Below, in pieces: positions 2,669 to 10,426 of a stretch of DNA of 41,033 nt; the stretch's first letter is position 1; every line of letters begins with the position of its first letter. The notes beneath the pieces are model-generated. The model ran no database searches. It had not been told where the DNA came from and was given only the letters and a program-made list of their open reading frames with translations. Made by a program: the position numbers and the translations under genes. Location: positions 1 through 41,033 of the forward strand of contig WLFD01000004.1 of the NCBI GenBank assembly GCA_009703925.1, in the 5' to 3' direction. The stretch is from Actinomycetota bacterium. Lineage in GTDB: Bacteria > Actinomycetota > Acidimicrobiia > Acidimicrobiales > Acidimicrobilacustridaceae.

Positions 2669-3835
2669 TCAGCCGGCGAGGGCGCGCAGTGAACCGATGA
2701 TCGTCGGAAGATTCTCGACAGCGGCCTCGATGTCGGCGTCGACGGTGTCCCATCCGACCGAAAGACGCAGCGAACGGTGGGCGTCGACGCCCATCGCCTC
2801 GAGTACCGGCGACGGTTCGAGACCTTCGGAGGCACAGGCGCTACCCGAATGGGCCGCCACCCCGCGCTGGTCGAGTCCGAGAAGGACTCCCTGGGGTTCG
2901 ACCCCTTCGATGGCGAAGCAGACGATCTGGGGCAGTCTGCCGACCGGATCCGGATCGCCGAGGTGGACGACTCCCGGGATCGTCGTGACCGCAGCGACGA
3001 GGCGTTCGGTCTGGACGCGGGCCCGGTATTGCTCGTCGGCTAACCGGGCATCGGTGAGTGCGGCGGTCGCGGCGGCGAGGCCGATGCAGGCGAGGACGTT
3101 CTCCAGGCCGGCCCGTCGGGCCCGTTCCTGATCACCGCCGGACAGGAGCGACTCGAGGCGCAGACCGCGTCGGACATAGAGCACGCCCGCCCCGACTGGA
3201 CCTCCGAACCGGTGGCCGCTGAACGACACGAGGTCGGCGCCGAGTTCGGTGAGGTCGACAGGGACATGGCCGACGGCCTGCGACGCGTCGACATGAACCA
3301 GGACGCCGAGTCGGCGGCATCCCTCGACAATCTCCGCCACCGGCTGAAGGGTCCCGACTTCGTGATTGCCCCATTGGACATGCACGAGGGAGGTGTCGGA
3401 GGTGACGGCGCCGAGGATCTCGTCGGGCACGATCCGACCACAGGGATCGACTCCGACTGTCGTGACGGTTCCACCCGATGCGGCGCCGAACGACTCTGCC
3501 GAACGACGGACCGCAGAATGCTCGACGGCGGACATCACGATGTGTGGAGAACCGCCGGGGGAGACGGATCGTTCGACAGCCCCCCACGTGGCGGCCGCGA
3601 TCGACTCGGTAGTACCGCTCGTGAAGACGATCTCGCGGGGGCGGGCCCCGACGAACGCAGCGACCTGTCCGCGTGCGTTCTCGAGTTCGACGCGCGAGCG
3701 CATTCCTTCGGAATGGATGCGTCCGGGGTCACCGAATCCGTTTCGACCCGATTCCTCGAGCCAGGTGACCATCGCCGAAACGACCTCGGGACGGGGTGGC
3801 GAGGTCGACGCGTGATCGAGATAGTGGCGGGCCAC
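2669..3835 (-). CDS. NifS/IscS-like class V aminotransferase-fold protein (cysteine desulfurase homologue) lacking the PLP lysine
   Basis: TSGTTES, AVEHSAV, GNHEVGT, VHVDASQAVG, GGDQERARRAGLEN and SGSACASEGLEPS match IscS/NifS motifs, but SFSGHRFGGPVGAG has Arg where IscS has Lys ([14 protein letters not shown]); no lysine anywhere in the ORF. Confidence 0.85.
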   Translation of the reverse strand: MARHYLDHASTSPPRPEVVSAMVTWLEESGRNGFGDPGRIHSEGMRSRVELENARGQVAAFVGARPREIVFTSGTTESIAAATWGAVERSVSPGGSPHIVMSAVEHSAVRRSAESFGAASGGTVTTVGVDPCGRIVPDEILGAVTSDTSLVHVQWGNHEVGTLQPVAEIVEGCRRLGVLVHVDASQAVGHVPVDLTELGADLVSFSGHRFGGPVGAGVLYVRRGLRLESLLSGGDQERARRAGLENVLACIGLAAATAALTDARLADEQYRARVQTERLVAAVTTIPGVVHLGDPDPVGRLPQIVCFAIEGVEPQGVLLGLDQRGVAAHSGSACASEGLEPSPVLEAMGVDAHRSLRLSVGWDTVDADIEAAVENLPTIIGSLRALAG

Positions 3836-3838
3836 AGC

Positions 3839-4558
3839 TCAGGCTTCGAGCGATGTGACGCAGATGGAGTCGCCCATGGGTATCGAGGACTCCGTCGCGA
3901 GCGTCGCCTCGTGCCCGTACAGCTCGGCGATCATGCCTTTCATCATTCCGCGGTCGACGGCGCAGATGACAGGGTTCGCCATCACGACATCGCCGAACGG
4001 GCAGTTCTCGCTGACGATCCGCAATTCGTTGTTCCGCTTCTCGGCATGGGCGGCGAAACCGTGGGCGGTGAGGGCATCGGCCACCGTGTGCAGGGCGGAA
4101 CGGAACGAACGCTGATGTTCGGACTCGTCGTTCATGGTCTGTGCCATGAGACGTCCGTATTCGATGCCGACTTCCTCGGCCATCGTCTCGGCCTGCTCGC
4201 GCGGGATCATGTCGAGCGCCCGGCCCAGAAGCATCACGAGGACGTCGTCGTGGCGAACGGGAAGTTCGAGATCGTCGCCCTTCGTGGTCGCGGTGTAGCG
4301 CTTCGAGGGGCGACCGGCACCGGTGCCGCCGCGGGCGACGGCGACATCGAGATAGCCACCGGCGACGAGTTTGTCGAGGTGATGGCGGGCGACGTTGGCG
4401 TGAAGATCGAACTTCTTGGCCACTTCGGAAGCCGTCACACCGTCCTCGGTACTGCGGGCGAGGAGGTAGATCTCGCGCCGGGAGGGATCGCCGAAGGCCG
4501 ATGTGATGGCTGTCACAACGGACGAGAACTCGGTTGGGGTGAGGGTCGCCTTGTCCAC
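3839..4558 (-). CDS. SufR/ArsR-type winged-helix regulator with C-terminal cysteines (candidate Fe-S sensor)
   Basis: N-terminal wHTH (FGDPSRREIYLLARSTEDGVTASEVAKKFDLHANVARHHLDKLVAGGYL); C-terminal Cys-X12-Cys (NCPFGDVVMANPVIC) plus a third Cys (SICVT); GTG start; 3 bp before the desulfurase homologue. Confidence 0.8.
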   Translation of the reverse strand: MDKATLTPTEFSSVVTAITSAFGDPSRREIYLLARSTEDGVTASEVAKKFDLHANVARHHLDKLVAGGYLDVAVARGGTGAGRPSKRYTATTKGDDLELPVRHDDVLVMLLGRALDMIPREQAETMAEEVGIEYGRLMAQTMNDESEHQRSFRSALHTVADALTAHGFAAHAEKRNNELRIVSENCPFGDVVMANPVICAVDRGMMKGMIAELYGHEATLATESSIPMGDSICVTSLEA

Positions 4559-4560
4559 GC

Positions 4561-4594
4561 AGGTATTCTACCTACCGTCGTAGGAGAAATACCT
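4561..4594. promoter_or_regulatory. 34-bp imperfect palindrome, candidate operator between the SufR-like gene and mrp
   Basis: AGGTATTCTACCTAC-CGTC-GTAGGAGAAATACCT; arms match 12/15. The left arm contains the reverse-strand -10-like TAGAAT (4565-4570), 6 nt from the regulator GTG. Confidence 0.65.
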
Positions 4595-4628: not shown

Positions 4629-5771
4629 ATGGCAGTAACCGAAGCCGATGTCATCGAGGTACTCCGTCCCGTCGAGGACCCCGAACTGCACCGCAGCATC
4701 GTCGATCTGGGCATGGTCCGCGGCGTGGCGATCGACGGCAACGTCGTCGCCGTACGTATCGCACTCACCATCGCCGGTTGCCCCTTGCGCAACGAGATCC
4801 AGACCCGAGTGACGAACGCGATCGTCGCCCTCGACGGCCTCGATCGGGTCGATCTCGATTTCACCGTCATGACCGATGACGAACGGGCCGAACTTCGTCA
4901 GAAGCTCCACGGCGACCCGGGATCGACGGCCGGCACCAATCAGGGGCACGGCCACGCCGAGGGTCGCGTCATCCCGTTCGCCGATCCGTCGAGCAAGACG
5001 CGTGTACTGCTCATCGGTTCCGGAAAGGGCGGCGTGGGCAAGTCGTCGCTCACCGCCAACATTTCCATCGCGCTCGCCCAGCGCGGCCACAAGGTCGCCG
5101 TCGTCGATGCCGATGTCTGGGGTTTCTCGATCCCGAGGATGCTCGGGGTCGAACACACCCCGGTGCAGATCGATCAGATGATCGTTCCCCCCGAGGTCCA
5201 CGGCGTGCGATGCATCTCGATGGGGTTCTTCGTCGAGGAGGACCAGCCGGTCATCTGGCGAGGCCCGATGTTGCACAAGGCCCTCGAGCAGTTCCTCACC
5301 GATGTGTTCTGGGACGAACCCGATTTCCTCCTTGTCGATCTTCCCCCGGGCACCGGCGACATCGCCCTTTCGCTGGCACAGTTCCTGCCGCGGGCGGAGC
5401 TCTATGTCGTGACGACACCGCAACCTGCCGCCCAGAAGGTCGCACAGCGGGTCGCGTTCATGGGCCGGAAGGTGAATCTCGAGGTCAAGGGAGTCATCGA
5501 GAACATGTCCTGGTTCACCGGTGATGACGGAAAGCGCTACGACCTCTTCGGTGAGGGCGGCGGCGCCGAACTGGCCGAACAACTCGAGGTCCCGCTGCTC
5601 GGACAGGTTCCGCTGGTTCAGGCCATGCGCGAAGGATCCGATTCCGGTCGGCCGATCGTCGCCATCGATCCGGAGTGCGAAGCGTCGCTGGCGATTCGCA
5701 AGATCGCCGAGGTCATCGACGTGGAGCTTGCCCCGACCCGCATCTACAGCTCCGGGCTGAAGATGCTCTGA
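4629..5771 (+). CDS. mrp: Mrp/ApbC/NBP35-family P-loop ATPase with N-terminal DUF59 (MIP18-like) domain
   Basis: DUF59 motif TIAGCP; GSGKGGVGKSSLTANISIALAQRGHKVAVVDADVWG; LLVDLPPGTGD; ENMSWFTGDDGKRYDLFGEGG (no CxxC). Confidence 0.92.
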   Translation: MAVTEADVIEVLRPVEDPELHRSIVDLGMVRGVAIDGNVVAVRIALTIAGCPLRNEIQTRVTNAIVALDGLDRVDLDFTVMTDDERAELRQKLHGDPGSTAGTNQGHGHAEGRVIPFADPSSKTRVLLIGSGKGGVGKSSLTANISIALAQRGHKVAVVDADVWGFSIPRMLGVEHTPVQIDQMIVPPEVHGVRCISMGFFVEEDQPVIWRGPMLHKALEQFLTDVFWDEPDFLLVDLPPGTGDIALSLAQFLPRAELYVVTTPQPAAQKVAQRVAFMGRKVNLEVKGVIENMSWFTGDDGKRYDLFGEGGGAELAEQLEVPLLGQVPLVQAMREGSDSGRPIVAIDPECEASLAIRKIAEVIDVELAPTRIYSSGLKML

Positions 5772-6148: not shown

Positions 6149-7111
6149 ATGGACACGCCGGAGCTCGGTCTGCTCGAGCATCGGTTGCTCTTCGTCACCG
6201 GAAAGGGCGGCGTCGGCAAGACGAGTGTCTCGGCGGCGCTGGCGATGCTTGCGGCGAGCCGGGGCAAAAGGGTCCTCGTCGTTCAGGTCGACGCCGAGGG
6301 CGGCCTTCCGGGAGTACTGGAGTCCGGCCCCATCGCCTATGACCCCATCGAGGTTTCTCCGAACCTCTGGGCCATGTCGGTGGACACCGAAGAGGCGTTG
6401 CGCGAGTACATAAGGCGCCAATTGCGCCTCCCGATCATCACGCGTCTCGGACCACTCGCCCGCAGTTTCGATTTCGTGGCGAATGCGGCCCCGGGGGTGA
6501 AGGAACTTCTCGTCATCGGGAAGATCATGTGGGAGATCCGGGAGAAGAGTTACGACCTCGTCGTCGTCGATTCGTCGGCGTCGGGTCATGTGGTGAGTCA
6601 GCTGTCGGCACCGAACGCTGTGAACGAACTCGTGCAGGTCGGTCGGATCCGCGAGCAGACGCAATGGATGATCGACCTCCTTGCCGATCCGGTGGTCACC
6701 GGGGCCGTCATCGTCACGACACCGGAGGAGATGCCGGTAACCGAAGCCATCGAACTTCTCGACCGCCTCGAATCGGAAACCGATGTCAACGTCGCGGCGA
6801 TCGTGGTCAACAAAGTGCTTCCCGAACTCTTCGGCCGGGGGGAACAGGAAGTCTTCGACGCACTGAACTCGGTCGAAGGTCGGCGTGCCTTCGCTCAGGT
6901 TCTCGGCGACGATCCGGCCGCGCTGCTCGATGGCGCCGATCTGGCCAGCCGACTCCGCCGGAGCCGGGGGAAGCATCTGGAGCGGCTTCGATCGGGGATC
7001 CCGGGCGATCGACCGATGATCTTCCTTCCGCAACTCTTCTCCGCGTCGCACGGCATCAGGTCCACGCGCGAACTTGCCGAAGCATTCGACGACGAGATCG
7101 GGGAAGCCTGA
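6149..7111 (+). CDS. ArsA/Get3-like ATPase, first paralogue (Rv3679-like)
   Basis: FVTGKGGVGKTSVSAALAMLAASRGKRVLVVQVDAEGG (deviant Walker A with signature Lys); DLVVVDSSASGHVVSQL. Confidence 0.85.
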   Translation: MDTPELGLLEHRLLFVTGKGGVGKTSVSAALAMLAASRGKRVLVVQVDAEGGLPGVLESGPIAYDPIEVSPNLWAMSVDTEEALREYIRRQLRLPIITRLGPLARSFDFVANAAPGVKELLVIGKIMWEIREKSYDLVVVDSSASGHVVSQLSAPNAVNELVQVGRIREQTQWMIDLLADPVVTGAVIVTTPEEMPVTEAIELLDRLESETDVNVAAIVVNKVLPELFGRGEQEVFDALNSVEGRRAFAQVLGDDPAALLDGADLASRLRRSRGKHLERLRSGIPGDRPMIFLPQLFSASHGIRSTRELAEAFDDEIGEA

Positions 7112-8274
7112 TGGCGGGCCTGGAGCAATTGTGCGCGTCGCGGGAGATCATCATCACTTGCGGATCGGGCGGAGTGGGAAAGACCACGACCGCCGCAGCA
7201 CTCGGTGCCTATGCGGCGGCGCGTCTCGGGGGCAAGGTGCTGGTGCTCACCGTCGATCCGGCGAAGAGACTGGCGACGGCACTCGGTCTCGAGCAGTTCG
7301 GAAACATCGAGACACGCGTTCCCGAGGAACTGATCGTCGAAGCCGGGCTCGAGTCCGGTGGCGAGTTGTGGGTGGCGATGCTCGACACGAAACAGTCGTG
7401 GGACGATCTCGTCCGATCGAACGCTCCCGATCCCGCGACAAGGGATTCGATTCTCGCCAATCCGCTCTATCGCAACATCACCGGGCGCTTCGTGCAGAGT
7501 CACGATTACATCGCGATGGAGCGTCTGTACGAGATCCACGCGAGTGGCCGCTATGACCTCATCATCGTCGACACACCGCCGAGCCGGAACGCGATCGATT
7601 TTCTCGATGCGCCGGAACGGATGGCGGATTTCGTCTCGAGCAGCCTGTTGCGCTGGCTGATCACGCCATCGCGTTCGCGACTCGTGACGGCGGCATCCAG
7701 GCCGTTCACGACGATCGCCGATCGCATTCTCGGGGCCCAATTCCTTTCGGACATCACCGAGTTCTTCGTGCTTTTCCAGACGATGTACGAAGGGTTCGCC
7801 GAGCGGGCCGAATCCGTGGGGCGCACACTCTCGGATCGTCGCACGAGTTTCGTCGTTGTGACGACCCTCGAAGAGGGGCCGGTCCGCGACGCGGAGTTCT
7901 TTCTCACCGCACTCGCCGAACGCGATCTCCATTGCGGTGCGGTGATCCTCAACAAGGCTCTGCCCCTCTCGTGCACGGATCCGGTGGCGACGGCGATCGC
8001 CGGTCGGTTGTCGACCGGAAGCGCCGGACTCGCCGATGAACTGGCGGCAGCTGTGGGCGACTCGATCCCCGGTCTCGCCGACTCCGCCCAGACCGAACGC
8101 GTTCTGCGCGAACTCGGGCGTAGCTACGGCGACTACCGCGTTGTCGCCATCCGGGAACGCGAGCAGGCGGCATCTTTGGCAAAATTGGCCGACGTCCTGG
8201 TCACCTCACCCCATCTCGACCGCGATGTGGGCGATCTCGCTGGACTGGTCGCGCTCGGCCAGTCACTCTGGTAG
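7111..8274 (+). CDS. ArsA/Get3-like ATPase, second paralogue (Rv3680-like)
   Basis: ATG at 7111 overlaps the TGA of the preceding gene; ITCGSGGVGKTTTAAALGAYAAARLGGKVLVLTVDPAKRLATALGL; DLIIVDTPPSRNAIDFLDAPERM. The track's 6529 start is an upstream extension inside the previous gene. Confidence 0.87.
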   Translation: MAGLEQLCASREIIITCGSGGVGKTTTAAALGAYAAARLGGKVLVLTVDPAKRLATALGLEQFGNIETRVPEELIVEAGLESGGELWVAMLDTKQSWDDLVRSNAPDPATRDSILANPLYRNITGRFVQSHDYIAMERLYEIHASGRYDLIIVDTPPSRNAIDFLDAPERMADFVSSSLLRWLITPSRSRLVTAASRPFTTIADRILGAQFLSDITEFFVLFQTMYEGFAERAESVGRTLSDRRTSFVVVTTLEEGPVRDAEFFLTALAERDLHCGAVILNKALPLSCTDPVATAIAGRLSTGSAGLADELAAAVGDSIPGLADSAQTERVLRELGRSYGDYRVVAIREREQAASLAKLADVLVTSPHLDRDVGDLAGLVALGQSLW

Positions 8275-9898: not shown

Positions 9899-10195
9899 CT
9901 ACGAAGCGCGGCGGCGTGCTGCCAGCCACTGGCGGCGCAGTTTGCGGCGCTCTTCTTCGGATGTTCCGCCCCAGATGCCGGAGTCCTGGTTGCTCGTGAG
10001 TGCGAACTCGAGGCAGGGCTGGCGAACGTCGCACTGGCCACAGACGGCTTTGGCGTTGTCGATCTGCTCGATGGCCGGGCCGGTGGTGCCGACGGGGAAG
10101 AAAAGGTCGGGGTCGGTGTCGCGGCAGGCTGACTGGTCGCGCCAGTCATTGTCGGCATCGGCAAGGGTCATCGAAACGGACGTGGTGATGGCCAC
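9899..10195 (-). CDS. WhiB-family Fe-S transcription factor (WhiB1-like by synteny)
   Basis: ACRDTDPDLFFP...AVCGQCDVRQPCLEFAL...GIWGGTSEEERRKLRR (four Cys plus G[IV]WGG); GTG start preceded by GGAGG. Confidence 0.92.
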   Translation of the reverse strand: MAITTSVSMTLADADNDWRDQSACRDTDPDLFFPVGTTGPAIEQIDNAKAVCGQCDVRQPCLEFALTSNQDSGIWGGTSEEERRKLRRQWLAARRRAS

Positions 10196-10426
10196 GGGTC
10201 CTCCAAAGATCAGGCTTGCGATTCGGGATTCCGCCCGTCCGCAAGAGGTTGTGCTCATGCCACCGCGCCTGTTGTCAGACTTCGTGTGGCTGGGGCGACG
10301 GACGATAAAGGAGCGAAGTACCTCATGCAAGGGATTCTTTTGCCTCGGTCAGGTTCTGCTACGGTTTTCGCCCGGGCACTGGCTTCTTCAACCTTGAGTG
10401 TGACAAATGACACGCGACGTTCCCGC

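Follow-up and report, generated by a model that had tools for sequence, protein, structure and literature searches.

The window, the whole 41,033-nt stretch of DNA analysed here, carries a gene for a SufR-like protein and mrp in divergent orientation. The two are separated by a gap of 70 nt, from the regulator's GTG at 4558 (minus strand) to the mrp ATG at 4629 (plus strand), and an imperfect palindrome lies in this gap. The genes and elements concerned are as follows.

2669-3835, minus strand: cysteine desulfurase (NifS/IscS-like), directly downstream of the regulator
3839-4558, minus strand: probable SufR-like repressor, 239 aa
4561-4594, no strand assigned: the palindrome originally reported, 34 bp, imperfect
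4564-4569, plus strand: candidate -10 element of mrp, TATTCT
4565-4570, minus strand: putative -10 element of the regulator, TAGAAT, leaderless
4565-4590, no strand assigned: conserved core of the putative operator, 26 bp
4629-5771, plus strand: mrp, an ApbC/NUBPL-type Fe-S carrier ATPase with an FeS_assembly_P domain

The regulator was assigned from Pfam and NCBIfam searches, alignment, an AF2 model and a fold search, and its two neighbours from domain matches; the order of regulator and desulfurase is kept in most relatives. Farther along, downstream of a DUF3107 gene, two tandem ArsA-family ATPases (6149-8274, plus strand) resemble mycobacterial BagA and BagB, the second without the signature Lys of KGGVGK. 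This second gene (7111-8274) is the BagB/ArsA-like "Lys-less homologue" that the earlier note had placed under the palindrome's control. Nothing ties it to the operator, from which it is separated by two more genes, and it was dropped as a target for lack of evidence. An ORF on the minus strand at 9899-10330 looks WhiB-like by eye from its spaced Cys residues and had no NCBIfam match.

Conservation of the palindrome and its core

Inspection of the sequence found the 34-bp palindrome exactly as described in the earlier note. Positions 4561-4594 read AGGTATTCTACCTAC-CGTC-GTAGGAGAAATACCT, with 15-nt arms (4561-4575 and 4580-4594) complementary at 12 of 15 positions around a 4-nt centre. The window holds 31 imperfect inverted repeats of similar quality, compared to 14 ± 7 (maximum 30) in dinucleotide shuffles. 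Inside the 70-nt gap such a repeat is unlikely by chance: of 3000 shuffled versions of the gap, only 9 contained one this good. Since repeats of equal quality are common across the window and can arise by chance, the shape alone proves nothing. The strength of the palindrome was therefore rejected as evidence by itself, and the case rests on conservation, which is decisive.

Orthologs of the regulator are present in most relatives; a search of the genome contigs with this single protein returned 10 loci. For 51 ortholog loci oriented on the regulator, a strong site was defined by a matrix score of at least 25. Such a site occupied the same spot in 40 of them, nearly always ending 6 nt before the GTG, and mrp was divergent from the regulator in 49/51. 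The earlier note had named loss of the palindrome in relatives with the same divergent pair as the outcome that would count against it; these 40 loci keep it. In the other 11 loci the site was absent or weak, and several of these genomes retained it at suf genes. Furthermore, a genome from a different order of the class (G074, L207) shares this layout of operator, 6 nt, GTG and divergent mrp. The palindrome is therefore a real DNA element, widely conserved in the Acidimicrobiia.

The functional unit is a 26-bp core with a 6-nt centre, not the full 34 bp. This core (4565-4590), delimited by its dyad, by ortholog conservation and by the copies at suf genes, follows the pattern ATT-N3-CCTA-N6-TAGG-N3-AAT and reads ATTTCTCCTA-N6-TAGGTAGAAT on the minus strand, the consensus being ATTTCTCCTA-N6-TAGGAGAAAT or near variants. 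In the regulator-oriented alignment, CCTA and TAGG were near-invariant and the N6 mostly free. Most conserved positions of the core carried about 1.2-2 bits each, positions of the upstream flank averaged 0.17 bits, and the outer AGGT/ACCT of the 34-bp version was conserved only in part.

Predicted promoters under the site and its copies at suf genes

The putative regulator -10 TAGAAT, on the minus strand at 4570-4565, lies 6 nt before the GTG at 4558, as the earlier note had read it, and this spacing is found in most loci. Transcription of the regulator is accordingly predicted to start at the G of the GTG (4558). The letter following this -10 was A in 54/54 regulator sites and in 0/20 sufD sites. 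The resulting TANNNTA gives a -10 on both strands, so that mrp may share a two-way -10 with the regulator; the candidate mrp -10 TATTCT overlaps that of the regulator as its reverse complement. Two-way bacterial promoters with a symmetric TANNNTA, a -10 on each strand and divergent starts about 18 bp apart have been described (PMC10268837). The regulator/mrp gap resembles them in this motif, and differs from them in that here the shared -10 would lie within the operator of a repressor, with the regulator gene on one side and its target on the other. Only 0-5 nt separate the mrp start from the operator in three genomes (G269, G039 and G037), and in these the mrp promoter would be expected to overlap with the operator.

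Conservation and geometry thus support the proposal of an operator lying over a leaderless regulator promoter and facing mrp. The accompanying claim of autoregulation was borne out in part: it fits the 40 of 51 loci with the site at the regulator but would be lineage-dependent rather than universal, because 11 of 51 regulator loci have no strong site. The leaderless promoter usually survived the loss of the operator.

Pattern searches, which miss weak sites, found four sites in the window's own genome (G000), namely the one at the regulator/mrp gap and three on another contig (C145).

C145:12236-12261: operator copy at sufB, assignment confirmed
C145:9417-9442: operator copy at sufD, assignment confirmed
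C145:4148-4173: operator copy at sufC, assignment confirmed

The sequence suggests a different promoter geometry at each gene. At sufD, about 6-8 nt would separate the end of a TAGNNT inside the site from the start; at sufC, a putative TAGACT lies downstream of the site, right before the ATG; and at sufB, a putative TACTAT inside the site is followed by a leader. With the site in front of sufB, sufC and sufD, none of them linked to the window, control by the regulator probably extends to the entire SUF machinery.

The matrix scores at the suf loci of relatives were bimodal, with 27 sites at 24.9 or higher and the next best at 0.2 (131 kb). The exact dyad was present in 39 of 61 relatives, and a reversed control pattern gave no match in either the dyad or the half-site searches of the whole genomes of all 61. 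Across relatives, almost all copies found were at suf, sufR/mrp or mrp-paralog promoters. Of 20 additional loci fetched for sorting, 19 lay at suf or sufR/mrp genes, and the lone exception, in the small genome G176, was chance-like. In G320, a copy flanked by an A-type-carrier-like gene and an mrp paralog (L204, around 1946) is a possible extension of the regulon.

In two genomes, G010 (L178) and G012 (L179), sufR and mrp lie about 6 kb apart with a peptide-type ABC transporter set between them; a binding protein, a permease and an ATPase were seen in L179. There the operator is gone at the regulator and at mrp but kept at sufB and sufD, and a TACACT -10 before the GTG persists. This arrangement provides a natural test of which targets matter. 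Upstream of sufR in G012 (L019), the place of the operator is taken by a different inverted repeat, GATCCTGATCCGGC...GCCGGATCAGGATC, which closely precedes the -10.

These data bear on the alternative that the site serves sufR and the suf genes only, with mrp a bystander that has its own promoter. The distance from site to mrp ranges from 0 to 97 nt, and mrp has no site in the two genomes where the ABC-transporter set separates the genes, as this alternative would expect. It is harder to reconcile with the three genomes in which the site and the mrp start are 0-5 nt apart, the two-way signature TANNNTA in 54/54 sites, and the separate site beside the mrp paralog in G320. We regard it as unlikely, though less so than the other alternatives considered here.

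The regulator and the protein likely to bind the site

The N-terminus of the regulator is an ArsR-like winged helix, with a Pfam match to HTH_20 that agrees with the AF2 model (pLDDT 80.9). The C-terminal domain matches MetOD1 and is V4R-like; the fold search returned Bet3/TRAPP, V4R and PoxR sensor folds with modest scores. Three cysteines, C186, C199 and C233, are invariant in an alignment of 28 orthologs, with the spacing C186-X12-C199-X33-C233. A Pfam domain search gave no Rrf2 match in the regulator, and a profile of the orthologs gave nothing below E 0.03 against PDB sequences. Against the equivalog model SufR_cyano (TIGR02702), the regulator scored 27.1 bits, below the cut-off of 178.8, and all 28 orthologs matched weakly (best E 1.5e-9). 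The winged helix and the three invariant cysteines uphold the designation of a SufR-type regulator. "SufR-like" is thus justified; identity as SufR itself is not established, because the score lies far below the cut-off and the protein groups separately from SufR-like proteins of the same genomes.

The site and the regulator gene occurred together. In a table sorted by hand, any suf site was found in 46 of 49 regulator-bearing genomes versus 5 of 23 near-complete genomes without the regulator (p 8e-10, an optimistic value since the genomes share descent). In a class sample of 395 genomes, the exact dyad occurred in 44, of which 42 carried the regulator, compared to 267/395 overall (p 4e-6). 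The exceptions were five genomes with a suf site and no detected ortholog (G358, G322, G304, G123 and G040, all at least 93% complete) and three with the regulator and no suf site (G024, G055 and G058).

IscR governs isc/suf genes in other phyla. The main rival candidate for the protein that binds the site is an Rrf2/IscR-family Fe-S regulator, the SufR-like gene being merely one of its targets. Rrf2 genes are indeed present in 61/61 relatives, one of them, in G026 (L200), is divergent from sufC across the site, and no SufR-like ortholog was detected in five of the genomes with the site. However, Rrf2 genes also occur in genomes without sites (e.g. G036 and G056) and hence do not track the site, which the SufR-like gene does (46/49 vs 5/23). 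Moreover, neither of the two Rrf2 genes of the window's genome (L202, L203) has a site nearby, and the Rrf2 domain beside sufC in G026 has no Cys in the translated stretch. We consider this alternative improbable; the five exceptions, together with the Rrf2 gene next to sufC in G026, leave it a low weight.

Still less probable is that the promoter alone is conserved and the palindrome arises incidentally from the symmetry of -10 elements. TANNNTA is symmetric in itself, and the leaderless GGTANNNT promoter persists where the palindrome is lost (L040, L042, L043). Nevertheless, conservation of the left arm ATTTCTCCTA almost equals that of the promoter arm, though the left arm is no promoter element of sufR, and the left arm recurs at sufB, sufC and sufD in another geometry relative to the -10. 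As for a hairpin or attenuator acting in the mrp leader RNA, the inverted repeat could sit partly within the mrp 5' leader, but this reading was rejected as very improbable for its misfit with leaderless starts: at sufR and sufD the palindrome lies upstream of or around the leaderless start and would not be transcribed in full, both of its orientations are found and its positions with respect to promoters are fixed, and what is conserved is sequence (CCTA/TAGG near-invariant) rather than pairing, the inner triplets being unpaired.

Proposed regulation and comparison with SufR systems

Site conservation, the target genes, co-occurrence with the regulator and overlap with promoter-like sequences are direct observations. 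We consider it highly probable that the palindrome is the operator of the adjacent SufR-like, Fe-S-sensing repressor, and that it controls the repressor's own gene, the cysteine desulfurase, mrp and the split suf units. The repressor would be the protein encoded directly beside the palindrome, and its dimer would bind ATTNNNCCTA-N6-TAGGNNNAAT. When bound, the dimer would cover the -10 of sufR, mrp, sufB and sufD and block RNA polymerase; at sufC it would cover the region just upstream of the -10. The C-terminal domain with its three invariant cysteines may hold an [Fe-S] cluster. With enough clusters in the cell, the holo-protein would repress, and loss of the cluster under iron or oxidative stress would open sufR, nifS, mrp and suf together. 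The operator thus most probably lets the cell shut off cluster assembly when clusters are abundant.

A 2021 review limits the description of SufR to cyanobacteria and two actinobacteria, and states that for most Gram-positives it is unknown how suf is regulated (PMC8593673). We found no paper treating SufR together with the Acidimicrobiia. For a whole class of actinobacteria, most of them uncultured, the present analysis names a regulator, an operator and a set of targets that can be put to the test, and it connects the Fe-S carrier Mrp with the suf regulon.

Some members of the class carry a second system. In G024 (C26), G027 (C1) and G036 (C2), a SufR-like gene is divergent from a second suf operon, and CCTA-N6-TAGG is absent from these second operons. 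G036 has lost the window-type regulator and its sites, and the second suf operon with its own SufR-like gene appears to have replaced the window-type system there. An exact CAAC-N6-GTTG was found before none of nine same-genome SufR-like genes; the one near match, CAAC-N6-ATTG, lies 85 nt upstream of the SufR-like gene of G036. A perfect inverted repeat AAGTTTCAC-CAT-GTGAAACTT, about 90 nt upstream of the SufR-like gene of G024 (L135), is a candidate operator of that group. Elsewhere, in G358 (L261) and G036 (L262), a paralogous regulator is divergent from a second mrp paralog and has no CCTA site.

The same-genome SufR-like proteins (L126, L127, L129-L135) are homologous to the regulator by profile-profile comparison (99.2% probability over 196 columns) and have the same Cys order, whereas their spacing is C-X12-C-X28-C and a long branch sets them apart as a group of their own (support 100/99). 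We can suggest only tentatively, and with somewhat less than even confidence, that a separate, class-wide Fe-S-sensing repressor family (winged helix plus V4R/Bet3-like domain, C-X12-C-X~33-C) took over SUF of the Acidimicrobiia with its own operator, that a two-way promoter co-expresses repressor, cysteine desulfurase and Mrp, and that the system can be displaced by a SufR-like protein bringing its own suf operon, as in G036.

In cyanobacteria and Streptomyces, SufR represses the suf genes and its own gene from an operator, CAAC-N6-GTTG, that overlaps the -10 (PMC8593673, PMC11995493). The window's system shares with SufR of cyanobacteria, Streptomyces avermitilis and Corynebacterium glutamicum the winged helix, C-terminal Cys ligands starting with C-X12-C, an inverted repeat with a 6-nt centre over the sufR -10, and suf genes and its own gene as targets. 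In contrast, its half-site is ATTNNNCCTA instead of CAAC, as the earlier note had already remarked in setting the site apart from the cyanobacterial operator; the operator has thus changed from CAAC-N6-GTTG to CCTA-N6-TAGG with the spacing kept. Its last Cys gap is about 29-33 rather than 28, the regulator gene stands beside mrp and nifS and not in a suf operon, and its suf genes are split into several units, each with an operator. SufR of M. tuberculosis (Rv1460) has three essential cysteines, C203-X12-C216-X27-C244, a leaderless sufR, a leadered sufB and autorepression (PMC6034842). The three cysteines and, as predicted for the window's system, the leaderless regulator, the leadered sufB and autorepression are common to both, whereas the mycobacterial gene is the first of the suf operon and no link to mrp is given in that study (PMC6034842). 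Thus, while scoring outside the curated SufR family, the system appears to resemble SufR in every working feature that can be seen in the sequence.
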